A stretch of 64,000 nt of DNA from Sphingobacteriaceae bacterium (GTDB lineage: Bacteria > Bacteroidota > Bacteroidia > Sphingobacteriales > Sphingobacteriaceae), in the NCBI GenBank assembly GCA_947460875.1, contig CANHGR010000002.1, forward strand, positions 62,001 to 126,000, written 5' to 3'. This document shows, piece by piece, positions 24,669-31,792 of this stretch. How positions within the stretch are numbered: the stretch's first letter is position 1; each line of letters starts with the position of its first letter. The translations under genes and the position numbers were made by a program. The notes beneath the pieces were generated by a model that saw only the letters and a list, made by a program, of their open reading frames with translations, was not told where the DNA came from and searched no databases.

Positions 24669-25094
24669 TTAGTCGCATGTTTCCAGATCAGCATCTGCTG
24701 ATTTTACATCATATAGACCCTGATTATTTCCAAAGGAATTGGTAACGTACGTTATCACTGCTGCGATATCAATGTTCGCTAAATGGGTTTGAGCGGGCAT
24801 ATTTCCCTCGTAAAGTTTCCCATTTATGATTATTGCATGATCCATGCCTTGCTTAACAAAGCAAGCTAGTTTATTTTTATTTTTTATTAAAAATATCGAG
24901 TCTGTCAATGGCGGAATCAAGGCTTGTAAGCCTAAACCATCTTTGCTGTGGCAGTTTTGGCAGTGTTGCTCATAGAATCCTTTCCCGTTTACATAATAGC
25001 GGGCATAGATGATGTCTTGCTCTGTTTGGCAAGAATTAAAAAGAATAAATATTATAATAATGCTGCAGAATACTAGGATCGCCTTGTTTTTCAT
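24669..25094 (-). CDS. Cytochrome c lipoprotein
   Basis: A 141-residue periplasm-facing lipoprotein with one class I heme site: lipobox ending in Cys22 (FNSC), heme motif C45-Q-N-C48-H49, and a distal Met in GNMPAQTHL. It carries electrons in the respiratory chain or nearby. Its ATG overlaps the SCO stop by four bases (ATGA), so the pair is coupled. Together with SCO it may serve a terminal oxidase encoded elsewhere, but that is inferred. Confidence 0.88.
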   Translation of the reverse strand: MKNKAILVFCSIIIIFILFNSCQTEQDIIYARYYVNGKGFYEQHCQNCHSKDGLGLQALIPPLTDSIFLIKNKNKLACFVKQGMDHAIIINGKLYEGNMPAQTHLANIDIAAVITYVTNSFGNNQGLYDVKSADADLETCD

Positions 25095-25741
25095 TTGGTT
25101 TTGTATTCATCAAGCAAAATCTGAATATCAGAAATTAGTTTGTCAACCTGCTTTTCGTCAGTTCCATCGTAGCCGGTTCCGCGAAGACGTTTTTCTTTAT
25201 CAATTAGCACAAACCAGCCCTGATGTACAAGACCCGCATGATCATCGGCACTGTTATCTTCCTGCACCGCAACTAAATAATTTTGCTCTGCAATCGTGTA
25301 TACTGAATCTTTAGTACCTCGCAAAAATTCCCACTGAGTACCCTCTATACCAAGTTTTGTAGCATATCTTTTCAAAACGGATGGCGTATCGTACTTATAA
25401 TCGATGGTGTGCGAAATTATTTTTACATCGGGATTGCCCTTAAATTTTTCGTAAACCTTAAGCATATTGCGGTGCATTACCGGACAGATACTTGGGCAGG
25501 AAGTAAAAAAGAAATCGGCAACATAAATTTTTCCGTCAAAATCTTTATCGGTCACTACGATACTATCCTGATTAATGAAACTAAAACTCGGGATGGTTAG
25601 ATAAAGCGTATCTATTACTGTCTTGCCGTCAATTACCTTCTCAATAGCTTCCCTCTCGCCCATGATGGGGAGGCTCGTCGGTTCGTTAGAAGAACAAGCA
25701 GTTATTAGAAAAGCTGCAATTGCAAAAATGAATAGTTTCAT
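25091..25741 (-). CDS. SCO family copper chaperone lipoprotein
   Basis: SCO/SenC proteins deliver copper to the CuA site of cytochrome oxidase or act as thiol-disulfide reductants. The lipobox is ITAC with Cys16. The copper motif FFTSC82-P-S-I-C86-P lies in a thioredoxin fold, and the third ligand is the His in DDHAGLVHQG. The length is 216 residues. It is coupled to the cytochrome c downstream. A good -7 box lies upstream at 25782-25789. Confidence 0.92.
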   Translation of the reverse strand: MKLFIFAIAAFLITACSSNEPTSLPIMGEREAIEKVIDGKTVIDTLYLTIPSFSFINQDSIVVTDKDFDGKIYVADFFFTSCPSICPVMHRNMLKVYEKFKGNPDVKIISHTIDYKYDTPSVLKRYATKLGIEGTQWEFLRGTKDSVYTIAEQNYLVAVQEDNSADDHAGLVHQGWFVLIDKEKRLRGTGYDGTDEKQVDKLISDIQILLDEYKTK

Positions 25742-25909: not shown

Positions 25910-26704
25910 ATGAAGCGCTGTTTATTTCTTTTGGTTTTTCTTCCTTTTTCAATTTCTGCGCAGATCGGTCCCGGTCCCCGTATAACGGCATTAGGATCTA
26001 TCGGACCGGCACTTCAAGATACGTGGAGTATGCAGTCTAACCCTGCAGGCATCGCATCTATACGGAAGGTTTCAATAGCAACAAGTTACGAGAGCGAATA
26101 TTTTAATCCCGATTTAAGCAGGCAATCAGCGGTGATTATCTTACCTCATAAAAAAAATGTCTACGGTATTAACTTTCATAATTACGGGTTTTCAGTCTAC
26201 AATGAACAACGTGTAGGATTTGCATATGCAAAAATCTTTGGAGAGGAGATTTTTGCCGCTCTTAGCTTTAACTATCACTTGTTATCGCTGCATCAATATG
26301 GTAGCGCAGACAGCTATTCTTTTGAACTCGGACTACAATATCGTTTCGGTGATAATCTTTTTGTTGGGGCTCATATCGCTAATCCAAATGCAAGTACGTA
26401 CAATGCAGTCTCAAACGCATCAATCCCCGTATACCTTGAATTTGGCGTATCCTATCGGTTTACGAATGAGCTGCTCCTTAACACTGGAGTAAAAAAGTAC
26501 CTAAACTCGTCCGCCGATTTTGCAATTGGTATGGAATACAGTCTTGCCGGATGGCTTGCAGCGCGTGGCGGCGTAACGGTAAATCCGTTTATGCAATTTG
26601 CTGGTTTTGGGTACTCCTTGGGTAGTTTTCGTTTTGATGCTGCTACTTCTTTACATAGTATTTTGGGTTATTCTCCACAGATAGCGATCAGTTATGAGTT
26701 TTAG
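25910..26704 (+). CDS. PorV/PorQ-like outer-membrane beta-barrel protein
   Basis: An exported barrel protein: signal peptide MKRCLFLLVFLPFSISAQ, then IGPGPRITALGSIGPALQDTWSMQSNPAGIASI, the N-terminal signature of the PorV/PorQ group, then alternating aromatic beta-strands to the terminal ISYEF. PorV and PorQ work with type IX secretion cargo at the outer membrane, but many family members have no assigned role. I start at ATG 25910 (signal peptide) rather than eight codons upstream. About 264 residues. Its 3' end overlaps the next gene by 11 bases, so the two are coupled. Confidence 0.78.
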   Translation: MKRCLFLLVFLPFSISAQIGPGPRITALGSIGPALQDTWSMQSNPAGIASIRKVSIATSYESEYFNPDLSRQSAVIILPHKKNVYGINFHNYGFSVYNEQRVGFAYAKIFGEEIFAALSFNYHLLSLHQYGSADSYSFELGLQYRFGDNLFVGAHIANPNASTYNAVSNASIPVYLEFGVSYRFTNELLLNTGVKKYLNSSADFAIGMEYSLAGWLAARGGVTVNPFMQFAGFGYSLGSFRFDAATSLHSILGYSPQIAISYEF

Positions 26705-28730
26705 ATCGCATGTATTGATAGCCGTTTGCCTTTGCATCGGCCGTTTGTCTTATTCTCAAACAGAGCGGATTCTTATCGTCGAGCAGGTTATAGAATCAAT
26801 AACCGAGAGCACGGAAGAAGATTTTGACTATTCAGAATTATCCGAAAGACTGAATTTTTATTTTCTAAATCCTGCTGATATTAATTCTGTAGGTGAAGAG
26901 CAATTAAAGGAATTTGTTTTTTTATCTCCATTGCATATCCATCGTATTTTAGCCTATCGTGAAAAAAATGGAGCGTTTATAGACTTGCTTGAGTTACAAA
27001 GTATTGACGGGATAGATAAGGAGACAATAATGAACTTGATTCCTTTTGTCAAGATCGGTTCCGTAAATGCTCTTCTCAACACCACCACCGAAGATTTGCT
27101 GGCAAAGGGTCATCATGATCTAATATTGCGTTATGGACAAACCCTTCAGCGACAGCAAGGATTTTTAATTCAGGATACAAGTAAATCAAGATATTTGGGA
27201 TCACCAGAGCGGCTTTTTGTTCGTTACCGTTATCGTTATGGGCAGCATGTATACTTGTCTTTGAATATGGAAAAGGATGCTGGTGAGCAATTTTTTTTAG
27301 GAAAAAAATTAAATGGATTTGATTTCTACTCCGCAAGCCTGTACTTGAGAGATCTGGGCAGATTCAAGAAGATCGTTATTGGCGACTATGCCCTTCAGTT
27401 TGGACAAGGACTTTCTTTATGGTCGGGTTTGGCTTTCGGAAAAGGAGCTGCAATAGCTACAACTACAAAATCGGAGATCGGTCTGCGGCCGTATTCTTCT
27501 TCAAACGAAGCATTGTTTTTTAGGGGTTTTGCAACAACTTGGACCGTTAAGAAGCTAAACATTACACCCTTTGTTTCTTATCGTTTGCTTGATGCAGGTA
27601 TAACTGATTCAGCCGATTTCGAGATCAAGTCGCTAAACCAATCAGGATTTCATCGCACGGCCGGCGAACTGAAAAACAAGGGTAATTTACGGCAAATGGT
27701 TTACGGCTTAAATGTCAAATATAACAAACGGAATTTAAGCATGGGTTTAAGTGCCTATAGAACAGTATTTAATCGTTTTTTTGAGCCCGGAAAAAACATT
27801 TACAATAAATTTAGATTTAGCGGGCTGTCACTATTTAATGGGTCCATATATTTTAACCGTACTTGGCGTAATATTTATTTATTTAATGAGGTGTCCCATA
27901 GCTTTGGCACAGGCATGGCATTATTAAATGGTTTATTGATTAGCCTTTCTCCGCAGGTATCGCTTTCTCTTCTACATCGTAATTACCATCGAGATTACCA
28001 TACTTTTTATAGTCAGGCAATAAGCGAAGGGAGCGGCGCAGCAAATGAAAAAGGGATGTATTCCGGCTTAGTAATCGCACCGTCGCGAAGTTTAGAACTT
28101 GCGGTGTATACCGACATTTTTAAGTTTCCATGGCTAAAATTCCGTGTTGATGCGCCATCAACAGGATTTGAAGGGTTTTCTCAGCTCACATGGTCATTAA
28201 AGAAAGTATTGAAGGCAATTTTAAGGTACAACATTGAACAGAAAGAACAGAATGGTGATGAAGGCATAGTTAGTATTCCTGTTGCAGTTTTCAAACAGAA
28301 TATCAGAGCTGAATTAAGTTATGTCTTGGCTGAGGGGCTCCAAATTCGTCACAGGATCGAAGTTTCAATTCATAAAAAAGGCTCGATTACTGAAGAAGGT
28401 TATCTCATTTATCAAGATTTGTTATACAATCCGATGCAGTCCCGTTTTTCCGGGAACTTCCGATTTGCACTCTTTAGTACAAGCGGGTATAATTCAAGGC
28501 TTTATGCGTACGAAAATGATGTGTTATATGGCTATTCTGTACCGGCTTTGCAAAATAAAGGAATTCGATTTTATTTAAACGGTCGGTGGAATTTGAGGAG
28601 GGGATTGGATGTTTGGATGAAGTACGGTATAACAAAATATACCAATGTCGATGAAATTGGTTCCGGATTAGAACTGATTAGCGGTAATATTAAGTCGGAC
28701 GTAAAAGTACAGTTCCGATTTCAGCTGTGA
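26694..28730 (+). CDS. ComEA-like helix-hairpin-helix protein with outer-membrane barrel
   Basis: A 678-residue exported protein. After a signal peptide ending at SYSQ and a helical segment, residues 59-121 form paired helix-hairpin-helix units: NPADINSVGEEQLKEF, then ILAYREKNGAFIDLLELQSI and GIDKETIMNLIPFVKIG. This is the pattern of the DNA receptor ComEA (NINTA...L..L.GIG...A..I...R...G.F). The remaining 550 residues alternate like amphipathic beta-strands and end FRFQL, as in outer-membrane barrels. The HhH could bind DNA at the periplasmic face. It sits between the PorV/PorQ-like gene (11-base overlap) and comEC (TGATG overlap). DNA binding is inferred. Confidence 0.75.
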   Translation: MSFRSHVLIAVCLCIGRLSYSQTERILIVEQVIESITESTEEDFDYSELSERLNFYFLNPADINSVGEEQLKEFVFLSPLHIHRILAYREKNGAFIDLLELQSIDGIDKETIMNLIPFVKIGSVNALLNTTTEDLLAKGHHDLILRYGQTLQRQQGFLIQDTSKSRYLGSPERLFVRYRYRYGQHVYLSLNMEKDAGEQFFLGKKLNGFDFYSASLYLRDLGRFKKIVIGDYALQFGQGLSLWSGLAFGKGAAIATTTKSEIGLRPYSSSNEALFFRGFATTWTVKKLNITPFVSYRLLDAGITDSADFEIKSLNQSGFHRTAGELKNKGNLRQMVYGLNVKYNKRNLSMGLSAYRTVFNRFFEPGKNIYNKFRFSGLSLFNGSIYFNRTWRNIYLFNEVSHSFGTGMALLNGLLISLSPQVSLSLLHRNYHRDYHTFYSQAISEGSGAANEKGMYSGLVIAPSRSLELAVYTDIFKFPWLKFRVDAPSTGFEGFSQLTWSLKKVLKAILRYNIEQKEQNGDEGIVSIPVAVFKQNIRAELSYVLAEGLQIRHRIEVSIHKKGSITEEGYLIYQDLLYNPMQSRFSGNFRFALFSTSGYNSRLYAYENDVLYGYSVPALQNKGIRFYLNGRWNLRRGLDVWMKYGITKYTNVDEIGSGLELISGNIKSDVKVQFRFQL

Positions 28731-30835
28731 TGGAAAAAGTACAGTTAGGTAATATTCCCTTTGTTCGTATGTTAATACCGCTCATGTTAGGAATATACGG
28801 TGCATCTATTTATACGCCCTCAGAACAACAATTTTCTATATATTCTTCGGGGTCAATCGTCCTGTTTATACTGACGCTATTATATATAGCTTTTTTTAAA
28901 CGAAATACAAATATTCGTTCGGCCTGGTTAATGGGCTTGCTAATAAGTTCGGTTGTATTTTTGGGAACTTATTTACTTACAGCCTATAAGTCTCAATTTG
29001 TATTAAGAGACCATTTCAGTCAAAAGAAATTTGAAATCCTTGCCGTTGTCATTAGAACAGAGCCCAAAAAATCAGGAAGTGTCGTACGCTTTGAAGCGGA
29101 TGTGCTGCAAGGCTATAAGAGCCCTAAATTTTACGCAGCTAGCGGTAGGCTATTGATCGCATTGCAAACCGATTCTTTAAAGAAGTACAGTTATGGTGAT
29201 CTTCTATTTATTTCAGCAGATTACTCGGAAGTGGAGCCTCCCTTCAATCCTAATGAGTTTGATTATAAGGCATATTTAGCGAATCACGAAGTTTATCATC
29301 AGATATTTCTTACAGAAAGCAAGCTGAGGTTGATTAAACATGATCAGGGAAATCTGCTGATTGCCAAGGCGCATAAGCTACGTGAGGTTTTAGTAAGCAA
29401 GCTTGAGCAATATATTGATAATCGGGATGCAAGTTCGCTTGCATCTACTTTGATCTTAGGTTATCGAGCCGATCTAAGCAAAGATGTTATCGACGCCTAT
29501 TCAAAAACCGGAACGATGCATGTATTGTCCGTCTCTGGGATGCATGTGGGGATAGTCTTTGTCGTAATGATTTTTCTCTTCAAAATTATGGATAGAAGTA
29601 AGAAACTGCGGTTAATCCGTGCAGCGCTTATGATTGCGCTAATCTGGTTTTACGCAGGTATTACCGGATTTTCGGCAGCGGTCTGTCGTGCAGCGCTCAT
29701 GATCAGCTTTGTAGTTATTGGTAAAGCACTGAATCGAAATCAGAATACGTACAATATAATCGCTATATCGGCTGTATTTCTCCTTATTTATGATCCGTTT
29801 CTGTTATTTGATGTCGGTTTCCAACTTTCGTATCTCGCGGTGCTAGGTCTGGTTTATCTATATCCGAAGATTTATAACCTATTTATTATAAAAAGTTGGC
29901 TTGGCGACAAATTGTGGAGCTATATGGCACTTTCTACCGCCGCCCAGATTGCGACTTTTCCACTCAGCGTTTATTATTTTCATCAGTTCCCCGTTTATTT
30001 TCTGATCAGCAATTTGTTGATCGTTTTACCGGTAACTATAATCATGTACGCGGGCCTGGTATTTCTTTTCATCCCTTGGGGTTTTTTACTGAAACCTCTG
30101 GGCTGGCTTTTGACCAAAAGTATTGTTTTAACTAATCAAGGACTATTTTGCATCGAAGAATTGCCGTCTGCGAGTATACACGGTATTTGGATAAGTGCTC
30201 AGTCAAGTATATTGATTTATGTCTTAATTGTGCTAATTGTATTTACATTTCATTATAAAAGAAAAAGCTATTTGTACCTAACTCTAGCTACAGTTGGCTT
30301 CCTTCTCGCATCCTACTCATTTGCAGAAATTAATCGCCAACGCCAGCATAAAGTAATTTTTTACAGCCTACGAAAGAATTCGGCGATTGGCTTTTTTAAT
30401 GGGGAAAAGGCTTGGATTCTAACCGACTTGTCTGCTTCCGACAAAGCGTTTACATATTCTATCAAACCTTCGATCGAATTTTCTCGGCTCAACGATTTTG
30501 AATTAGTTCAAACTGCCGCTTCATTTTCTCGCGAAAGTCTATTTATTCGGCCTAATTTTATTCAGTTTCGCGATTGGACATTGCTGATTTGGGATAAAAA
30601 ATTTGACCGAAGAACGTTTTCAAAGAATATTTCTGTTGATGCGGTTCTACTGAGGGAGAATCCAGAAATTGACATTAGCGATCTGAGACGTATGGTTGAT
30701 TTTAAAATTTTGCTAGTAGACGCAAATAATGCAGATGACCATATTGAAAAGTGGAATGAGCAGGCAGTGAAGGTGGCGACAAATTATCATGTTCTAAAAA
30801 GAAATAACGCATATCTTGTAATCTTTAACGACTAA
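28730..30835 (+). CDS. comEC: ComEC/Rec2 family DNA-uptake channel
   Basis: An inner-membrane channel that moves single-stranded DNA into the cytosol during natural transformation. The N-terminal soluble DUF4131 region is flanked by membrane helices. The competence domain has the signature GTMHVLSVSGMHVGIVF followed by AAVCRAALM and many helices (total about ten). The C-terminal part (about 560-701) replaces the usual metallo-beta-lactamase domain and shows no HxHxDH motif, as commonly seen in Bacteroidota. I choose ATG 28730, which overlaps the upstream TGA; a GTG one codon earlier is also possible. 701 residues. Confidence 0.9.
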   Translation: MEKVQLGNIPFVRMLIPLMLGIYGASIYTPSEQQFSIYSSGSIVLFILTLLYIAFFKRNTNIRSAWLMGLLISSVVFLGTYLLTAYKSQFVLRDHFSQKKFEILAVVIRTEPKKSGSVVRFEADVLQGYKSPKFYAASGRLLIALQTDSLKKYSYGDLLFISADYSEVEPPFNPNEFDYKAYLANHEVYHQIFLTESKLRLIKHDQGNLLIAKAHKLREVLVSKLEQYIDNRDASSLASTLILGYRADLSKDVIDAYSKTGTMHVLSVSGMHVGIVFVVMIFLFKIMDRSKKLRLIRAALMIALIWFYAGITGFSAAVCRAALMISFVVIGKALNRNQNTYNIIAISAVFLLIYDPFLLFDVGFQLSYLAVLGLVYLYPKIYNLFIIKSWLGDKLWSYMALSTAAQIATFPLSVYYFHQFPVYFLISNLLIVLPVTIIMYAGLVFLFIPWGFLLKPLGWLLTKSIVLTNQGLFCIEELPSASIHGIWISAQSSILIYVLIVLIVFTFHYKRKSYLYLTLATVGFLLASYSFAEINRQRQHKVIFYSLRKNSAIGFFNGEKAWILTDLSASDKAFTYSIKPSIEFSRLNDFELVQTAASFSRESLFIRPNFIQFRDWTLLIWDKKFDRRTFSKNISVDAVLLRENPEIDISDLRRMVDFKILLVDANNADDHIEKWNEQAVKVATNYHVLKRNNAYLVIFND

Positions 30836-31219: not shown

Positions 31220-31792
31220 ATGGATAGAGGGTTTATTGAAGACCAGACCTTTGAAAAAATTAAATTTTCTGAAAAAAGCTTCCCAATAGGGAATTATGAA
31301 AACTGTGTTTTTTCTAATTGCGACTTTTTTAATACTGATATTTCTAACTTTAATTTCACGGAGTGTGAATTCAAATCATGCAATTTAAGTTCCGCTAAGT
31401 TTGAGAAAACTGCCTTTAGAGATATAATTTTTGTTGATTGTAAAATGTTGGGCCTGCGTTTTGAAAATTGCAATGAGTTTTTATTTGAGGTTAATTTTCG
31501 AAACTGCAATCTTAATTTTTCTTCGTTCTATCGTCGAAAGCTAAAAAAGACAAAATTCATTTCTTGTTCCCTTCAAGAAGTTGATTTTACAGAATCGGAT
31601 CTTTCTGAATCTCTGTTTGAAAATTGTGACCTTCTAAGCTCGGTTTTTGAAAATACTGTCCTTGAAAAAGTAGATTTCAGAACGTCGTATAATTATAATA
31701 TTGACCCCCAGGCAAATCGTATCCGGAAAGCAAAATTTTCGATTAAAGGGGTAGCCGGCCTTTTAAATCAATTCGATATCGAAATAGAATAA
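31220..31792 (+). CDS. Pentapeptide-repeat protein
   Basis: A 190-residue protein made of A(D/N)LXX-like repeats, seen as recurring F-x-N/S-C-x-F units (ENCVFSNCDFFNTDISNF, ECEFKSCNLSSAKFEKTAF, ENCDLLSSVFENTVLEKVDF). Such proteins fold as a right-handed quadrilateral beta-helix that can mimic DNA. Qnr-type members protect gyrase from quinolones, and the C-terminal end (DPQANRIRKAKFSIKGVAGLLNQFDIEIE) has a Qnr-like layout. Sequence alone does not show gyrase binding. No signal peptide, so cytosolic. It stands alone between two degraded genes. Confidence 0.85.
   Translation: MDRGFIEDQTFEKIKFSEKSFPIGNYENCVFSNCDFFNTDISNFNFTECEFKSCNLSSAKFEKTAFRDIIFVDCKMLGLRFENCNEFLFEVNFRNCNLNFSSFYRRKLKKTKFISCSLQEVDFTESDLSESLFENCDLLSSVFENTVLEKVDFRTSYNYNIDPQANRIRKAKFSIKGVAGLLNQFDIEIE

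Follow-up and report, generated by a model that had tools for sequence, protein, structure and literature searches.

A predicted two-barrel outer-membrane gene pair of the Bacteroidota, coupled to comEC in the Sphingobacteriaceae

Two overlapping genes upstream of comEC were analysed in a 64 000-nucleotide stretch of Sphingobacteriaceae DNA (the window); they encode a PorV/FadL-like barrel (the PorV-like protein) and a much larger predicted barrel preceded by a helix–hairpin–helix domain (the HhH barrel). On balance, and with moderate confidence, they are best explained as encoding a two-barrel complex in the outer membrane of the Bacteroidota that is ancient and previously undescribed; its substrate is probably not specifically DNA, and in the Sphingobacteriaceae it is coupled to comEC. 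It is the pair of barrels, and not the trio, that stays constant; linkage to comEC is derived and restricted to one family.

Gene layout and predicted folds

All three overlapping reading frames proposed in an earlier note on this DNA were present (Table 1). The HhH-barrel gene starts inside the end of the PorV-like gene (...ATGAGTTTTAG), giving an overlap of 11 nt, and its TGA stop codon overlaps the ATG of comEC as TGATG. The N-termini of both barrel proteins resemble signal peptides. The layout is not due to chance, because it was seen again in dozens of genomes. Divergent to the trio lie SCO1/SenC and a c-type cytochrome gene (window 24669–25741); outside the class, three families (G042, G214 and G069) likewise have SCO1-like genes just 3' of the HhH barrel. 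A pentapeptide-repeat protein (Pentapeptide_4, 1.3e-24) is encoded downstream of comEC (window 31220–31789).

Table 1. Features of the locus (positions in the window).
Feature	Position	Strand	Remarks
PorV/FadL-like 14-stranded outer-membrane barrel gene	25910..26704	+	264 aa, signal peptide; from model and PDB match
HhH-barrel protein gene	26694..28730	+	678 aa: signal peptide, N-terminal helices, degenerate (HhH)2, predicted barrel of ~24 strands
Degenerate ComEA-type HhH domain, residues 60–120	26871..27053	+	Hairpins FLS, GID versus GIG, GIG
Predicted beta-barrel domain, residues 140–677 of the 678-aa protein	27111..28724	+	
TGATG stop/start overlap, HhH barrel/ComEC	28728..28732	+	
ComEC (DUF4131 and Competence, without Lactamase_B domain)	28730..30835	+	701 aa

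Structures were predicted with AlphaFold2 from alignments of 57 relatives (PorV-like protein) and 78 relatives (HhH barrel) and were compared with the PDB using Foldseek. The PorV-like protein was modelled with 14 strands (pLDDT 90.5); its top match was PorV in the type IX secretion system (T9SS) complex (8gl6_F; E = 1e-9, TM 0.78), followed by FadL/TodX. Its strand number and top structural match in the model place it in the PorV/FadL-like class. No NCBIfam model matched it, and it was not assigned as an orthologue of the T9SS PorV. A second PorV-type match in the genome (402 aa, C9:51740-52696) was taken as its true PorV.

In the 678-residue protein the sole Pfam domain above cut-off was HHH_3 (residues 62–119; 6.7e-9), and PDB entries related to it by sequence matched the HhH domain only. 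Its model (pLDDT 86.2, pTM 0.83) consisted of helices at residues 47–118 followed by 24 long strands at residues 140–677, so that the order of HhH domain and then barrel, proposed earlier, is borne out at the level of prediction. The strand residues alternate, the hydrophobic fraction of one face being 0.67 and that of the opposite face 0.33, and the charged residues of the protein are strongly conserved over wide distances. Structural matches were to large barrels of a generic kind, led by MtrB (E = 1.3e-12, TM 0.38) and followed by TonB receptors and FimD, with AlgE also present; a specific structural relative of the large barrel was not found by Foldseek (TM about 0.38).

The product of the third gene matched the Pfam families Competence (4e-58) and DUF4131 (5e-23), with no match to Lactamase_B. 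It was identified as ComEC by the Competence domain together with DUF4131, the DC profile that is usual in Bacteroidetes (PMC6299819).

The HhH domain compared with ComEA

The HhH domain has the HHH_3/ComEA-type fold (HHH_3, 6.7e-9; ComE operon protein 1 structure 8dss_A, E = 0.0013), and the HhH barrel matched the curated ComEA model TIGR01259 weakly (6.7e-5), with 22.9 bits against a cut-off of 152.35. The contrast with ComEA lies in the first hairpin. Its glycines were found at neither position in any aligned member (0/78; consensus FLS), and Gly-x-Gly was also absent there from all 29 members of another aligned set, whereas 30 of 30 true ComEA proteins from relatives carry Gly-Ile/Val-Gly. 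In hairpin 2 the first glycine was retained in 64 of the 78 members and the second in none (0/78), the motif being mostly GFD; the second glycine is also rare in the ComEA proteins of relatives (1/30), which mostly have G-x-D and therefore do not differ much at this point. Members from distant families were considered as possible carriers of canonical hairpins; this was rejected, since hairpin 1 was degenerate throughout, even in the few (e.g. G182 and G103) in which hairpin 2 is GIG.

On average the domain carries a net charge of -3.1; the corresponding values of the three ComEA units are +3.0, +0.3 and +2.8. The HhH barrel thus lacks the Gly-h-Gly DNA-contact hairpins of ComEA, and it is a barrel fusion rather than a free periplasmic or inner-membrane-anchored protein. 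Because the hairpin-1 glycines have been lost and the domain is acidic, canonical HhH contact with DNA is unlikely judging from the sequence, and the description of this domain as a DNA-binding module in the earlier note does not survive. The fold might nevertheless mediate contacts with proteins, since the third HhH unit of the genome's own ComEA is likewise without the glycines.

This ComEA is encoded separately (307 aa, C1:79834-80754). It has a membrane segment at its N-terminus and three HhH units, and the GIGPAFA hairpin of one unit is intact. Riemerella RA0C_RS02645, a protein indispensable for transformation (PMC8459023), is of this type too. Used as a query, the ComEA of this genome matched all 41 relatives (41/41), two of them (G012 and G023) through other HhH proteins only, and ComEA-type proteins were also found in genomes without the HhH barrel. 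As a canonical ComEA is encoded in the same genome, the fusion does not replace it; a fused ComEA standing in for the free protein was rejected. Nearly all relatives possess a separate ComEA, with or without the barrel. In one own-family genome (G012, 95% complete) the barrel trio is present and the ComEA-type match is to another HhH protein only, which may reflect an assembly gap.

Distribution and gene neighbourhood

The HhH-barrel family was found in 38 of 41 relatives (E <= 0.001), and for 37 of these the match extended beyond the HhH domain. ComEC is encoded directly beside the barrel in all barrel-bearing genomes of the window's own family (22/22), and in none of 15 genomes of other families (0/15), in which it lies on another contig or 45 kb away. 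Named loci place the family in the Sphingobacteriaceae. Among 80 named loci, comEC was <=100 nt downstream in 65; the 12 loci from other groups gave 0. A phylum-wide linkage to ComEC was therefore rejected, adjacency being confined to the one family.

Among the 37 relatives with the HhH barrel, 32 have an adjoining PorV-like gene, one more has it 2 kb away and one has a diverged copy; the three relatives without the barrel (G005, G014 and G037) gave no strong PorV-like match. Three own-family genomes (G002, G015 and G016) and many Pedobacter/Sphingobacterium loci keep the barrel and comEC without a PorV-like gene, so that the partner is dispensable in them, and in the family f32 no PorV-like gene could be recognised beside the barrel. 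The pair occurs in many other families, several of them outside the class. Its neighbours are purK/purE within the Bacteroidia and a divergent porD outside the class (eight loci of seven families; PorD identified with NF052317, 1.3e-85, in one member scanned), and both neighbourhoods look ancestral. Partial correlations of tree distances, calculated for 14 genomes only, were 0.35 for the barrel and the PorV-like protein, about 0 for the barrel and ComEC, and 0.63 for the PorV-like protein and ComEC. The trio had been expected to be co-conserved; its barrel genes are so phylum-wide, and ComEC joins them in the Sphingobacteriaceae only.

The HhH-barrel alignment matched 204 of 248 phylum genomes, or about 179 of 248 by reading of the table once weak matches, probably to the HhH domain only, had been removed. 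The large barrel is thus present in roughly 70% of the sampled Bacteroidota genomes; it is annotated just as 'helix-hairpin-helix domain-containing protein', a name that invites a wrong ComEA assignment, and it appears to be unstudied, a literature search for the family having returned nothing.

Other genes were seen after the HhH barrel: a response-regulator receiver-like protein in G042, G182 and G069, which represent three families outside the class (loci L221, L222 and L224), and a radical SAM gene in Parabacteroides and Bacteroides (L232 and L233), in which the barrel is annotated as a helix-hairpin-helix protein only and, in the Bacteroides copy, no PorV-like gene is annotated before it. 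The latter two records are labelled plasmids, yet they look like chromosome fragments because they carry genes such as nadA and leuS.

Possible functions and relation to known systems

In the two-barrel complex that we favour, the 678-residue protein would be a large transport barrel of about 24 strands, as modelled, and its HhH fold, devoid of DNA-contact hairpins, would most likely be a periplasmic or in-barrel plug or a protein-docking module. The PorV-like protein would be the partner subunit of the large barrel, by analogy with PorV for SprA and BamG for BAM, and DNA would probably not be the specific substrate. In the Sphingobacteriaceae, translational coupling would tie expression of the pair to that of ComEC, a shared pathway not being implied. 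Against this explanation stands the coupling to comEC, whose completeness in one family goes beyond what an accident would require.

The distinct outer-membrane DNA entry step envisaged in the earlier note is possible but not favoured. The barrel would act as the entry channel where secretins and the Riemerella-type pair are absent, and the HhH domain would guide DNA to the separate ComEA and then to ComEC. Besides the adjacency to comEC in all barrel-bearing own-family genomes, this is consistent with the absence from the genome of both the secretin domain (PF00263, no match at E <= 0.1) and any DUF5689 protein. A tally of listed rows across the 248 phylum genomes further showed that 33 of 37 strong-DUF5689 genomes (E <= 1e-43) are without the full-length barrel; the families f20 and f19 have a strong DUF5689 protein and no full-length barrel. 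Eight such loci were read, and in seven of them the DUF5689 gene immediately follows a gene for a TonB-receptor-like barrel, as is the case for the Riemerella uptake genes. This complementarity is, however, confounded by phylogeny, being carried mainly by f20 and f19, and four genomes (three of f21, and G128) have both. One own-family genome (G005, 1.7 Mb, 99% complete) is without the barrel, the PorV-like gene and ComEC together, but it keeps a full-length ComEA (51% identity) and so offers a natural loss case for the role of ComEA without ComEC. Conversely, G014 keeps ComEC without the HhH barrel or a DUF5689 match. The argument from the HhH domain fails, its hairpins being lost and the domain acidic, and no competence gene was found in the conserved neighbourhood outside the family. 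We therefore regard a DNA entry channel as unlikely.

Its extension, in which the HhH barrel and its PorV-like partner form the DNA entry channel of most Bacteroidota and were functionally replaced in Flavobacteriaceae-type lineages by the Riemerella RS04915/RS04920 pair, appears quite unlikely; if true, it would fill the missing outer-membrane competence step in the phylum. According to a study of P. gingivalis, it is still unclear how DNA is imported into the periplasm (PMC11532111); in the Bacteroidota literature candidates for outer-membrane DNA uptake were found for Riemerella only (PMC8459023). The barrel module is a testable candidate for this passage.

It is decidedly improbable that the pair serves the T9SS or outer-membrane biogenesis as an accessory, such as a carrier or an anchoring module, with the PorV-like protein as a PorV paralogue. 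The divergent porD outside the class and the top structural match to PorV point in this direction, but PorD is encoded elsewhere in the window's own genome, f32 has no recognisable PorV-like neighbour and the barrel is absent from f20, which we take to be the Flavobacteriaceae, a T9SS-rich family. An ordinary nutrient or ion porin pair unrelated to ComEC, its adjacency a frozen accident in one family, would suit the generic Foldseek matches and the lower transcript level (-3.7), in one iron-transcriptome table, of B. thetaiotaomicron BT3167, an HhH-domain protein and putative member, under iron depletion (PMC10434189), but is very improbable given the strict pairing and strongly conserved charged residues, which argue for a more specialised role.

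The preferred two-barrel complex can be compared with four known systems. The HHH_3-type fold is shared with ComEA, but the HhH barrel is without the hairpin-1 Gly-x-Gly, acidic and fused to a barrel, whereas the true ComEA of this genome is inner-membrane-anchored. RA0C_RS04915/RS04920 of Riemerella anatipestifer, envelope proteins needed for transformation (PMC8459023), differ in being a barrel with a carboxypeptidase-regulatory domain and a DUF5689 protein, the latter absent here. BamG, the FadL-family subunit of the Flavobacterium BAM complex (PMC12611786), is a FadL-family barrel within a larger machine, and PDB entry 9n2d is in the Foldseek list of the PorV-like protein; BamG is, however, part of BAM and not paired with an HhH barrel. 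SprA–PorV, the T9SS translocon, is similar in that a large outer-membrane barrel has a FadL/PorV-family partner, but SprA has 36 strands (PMC10994853) against about 24 predicted in the HhH barrel, the partnership here is a proposed one, and the genome has a separate PorV-type match.
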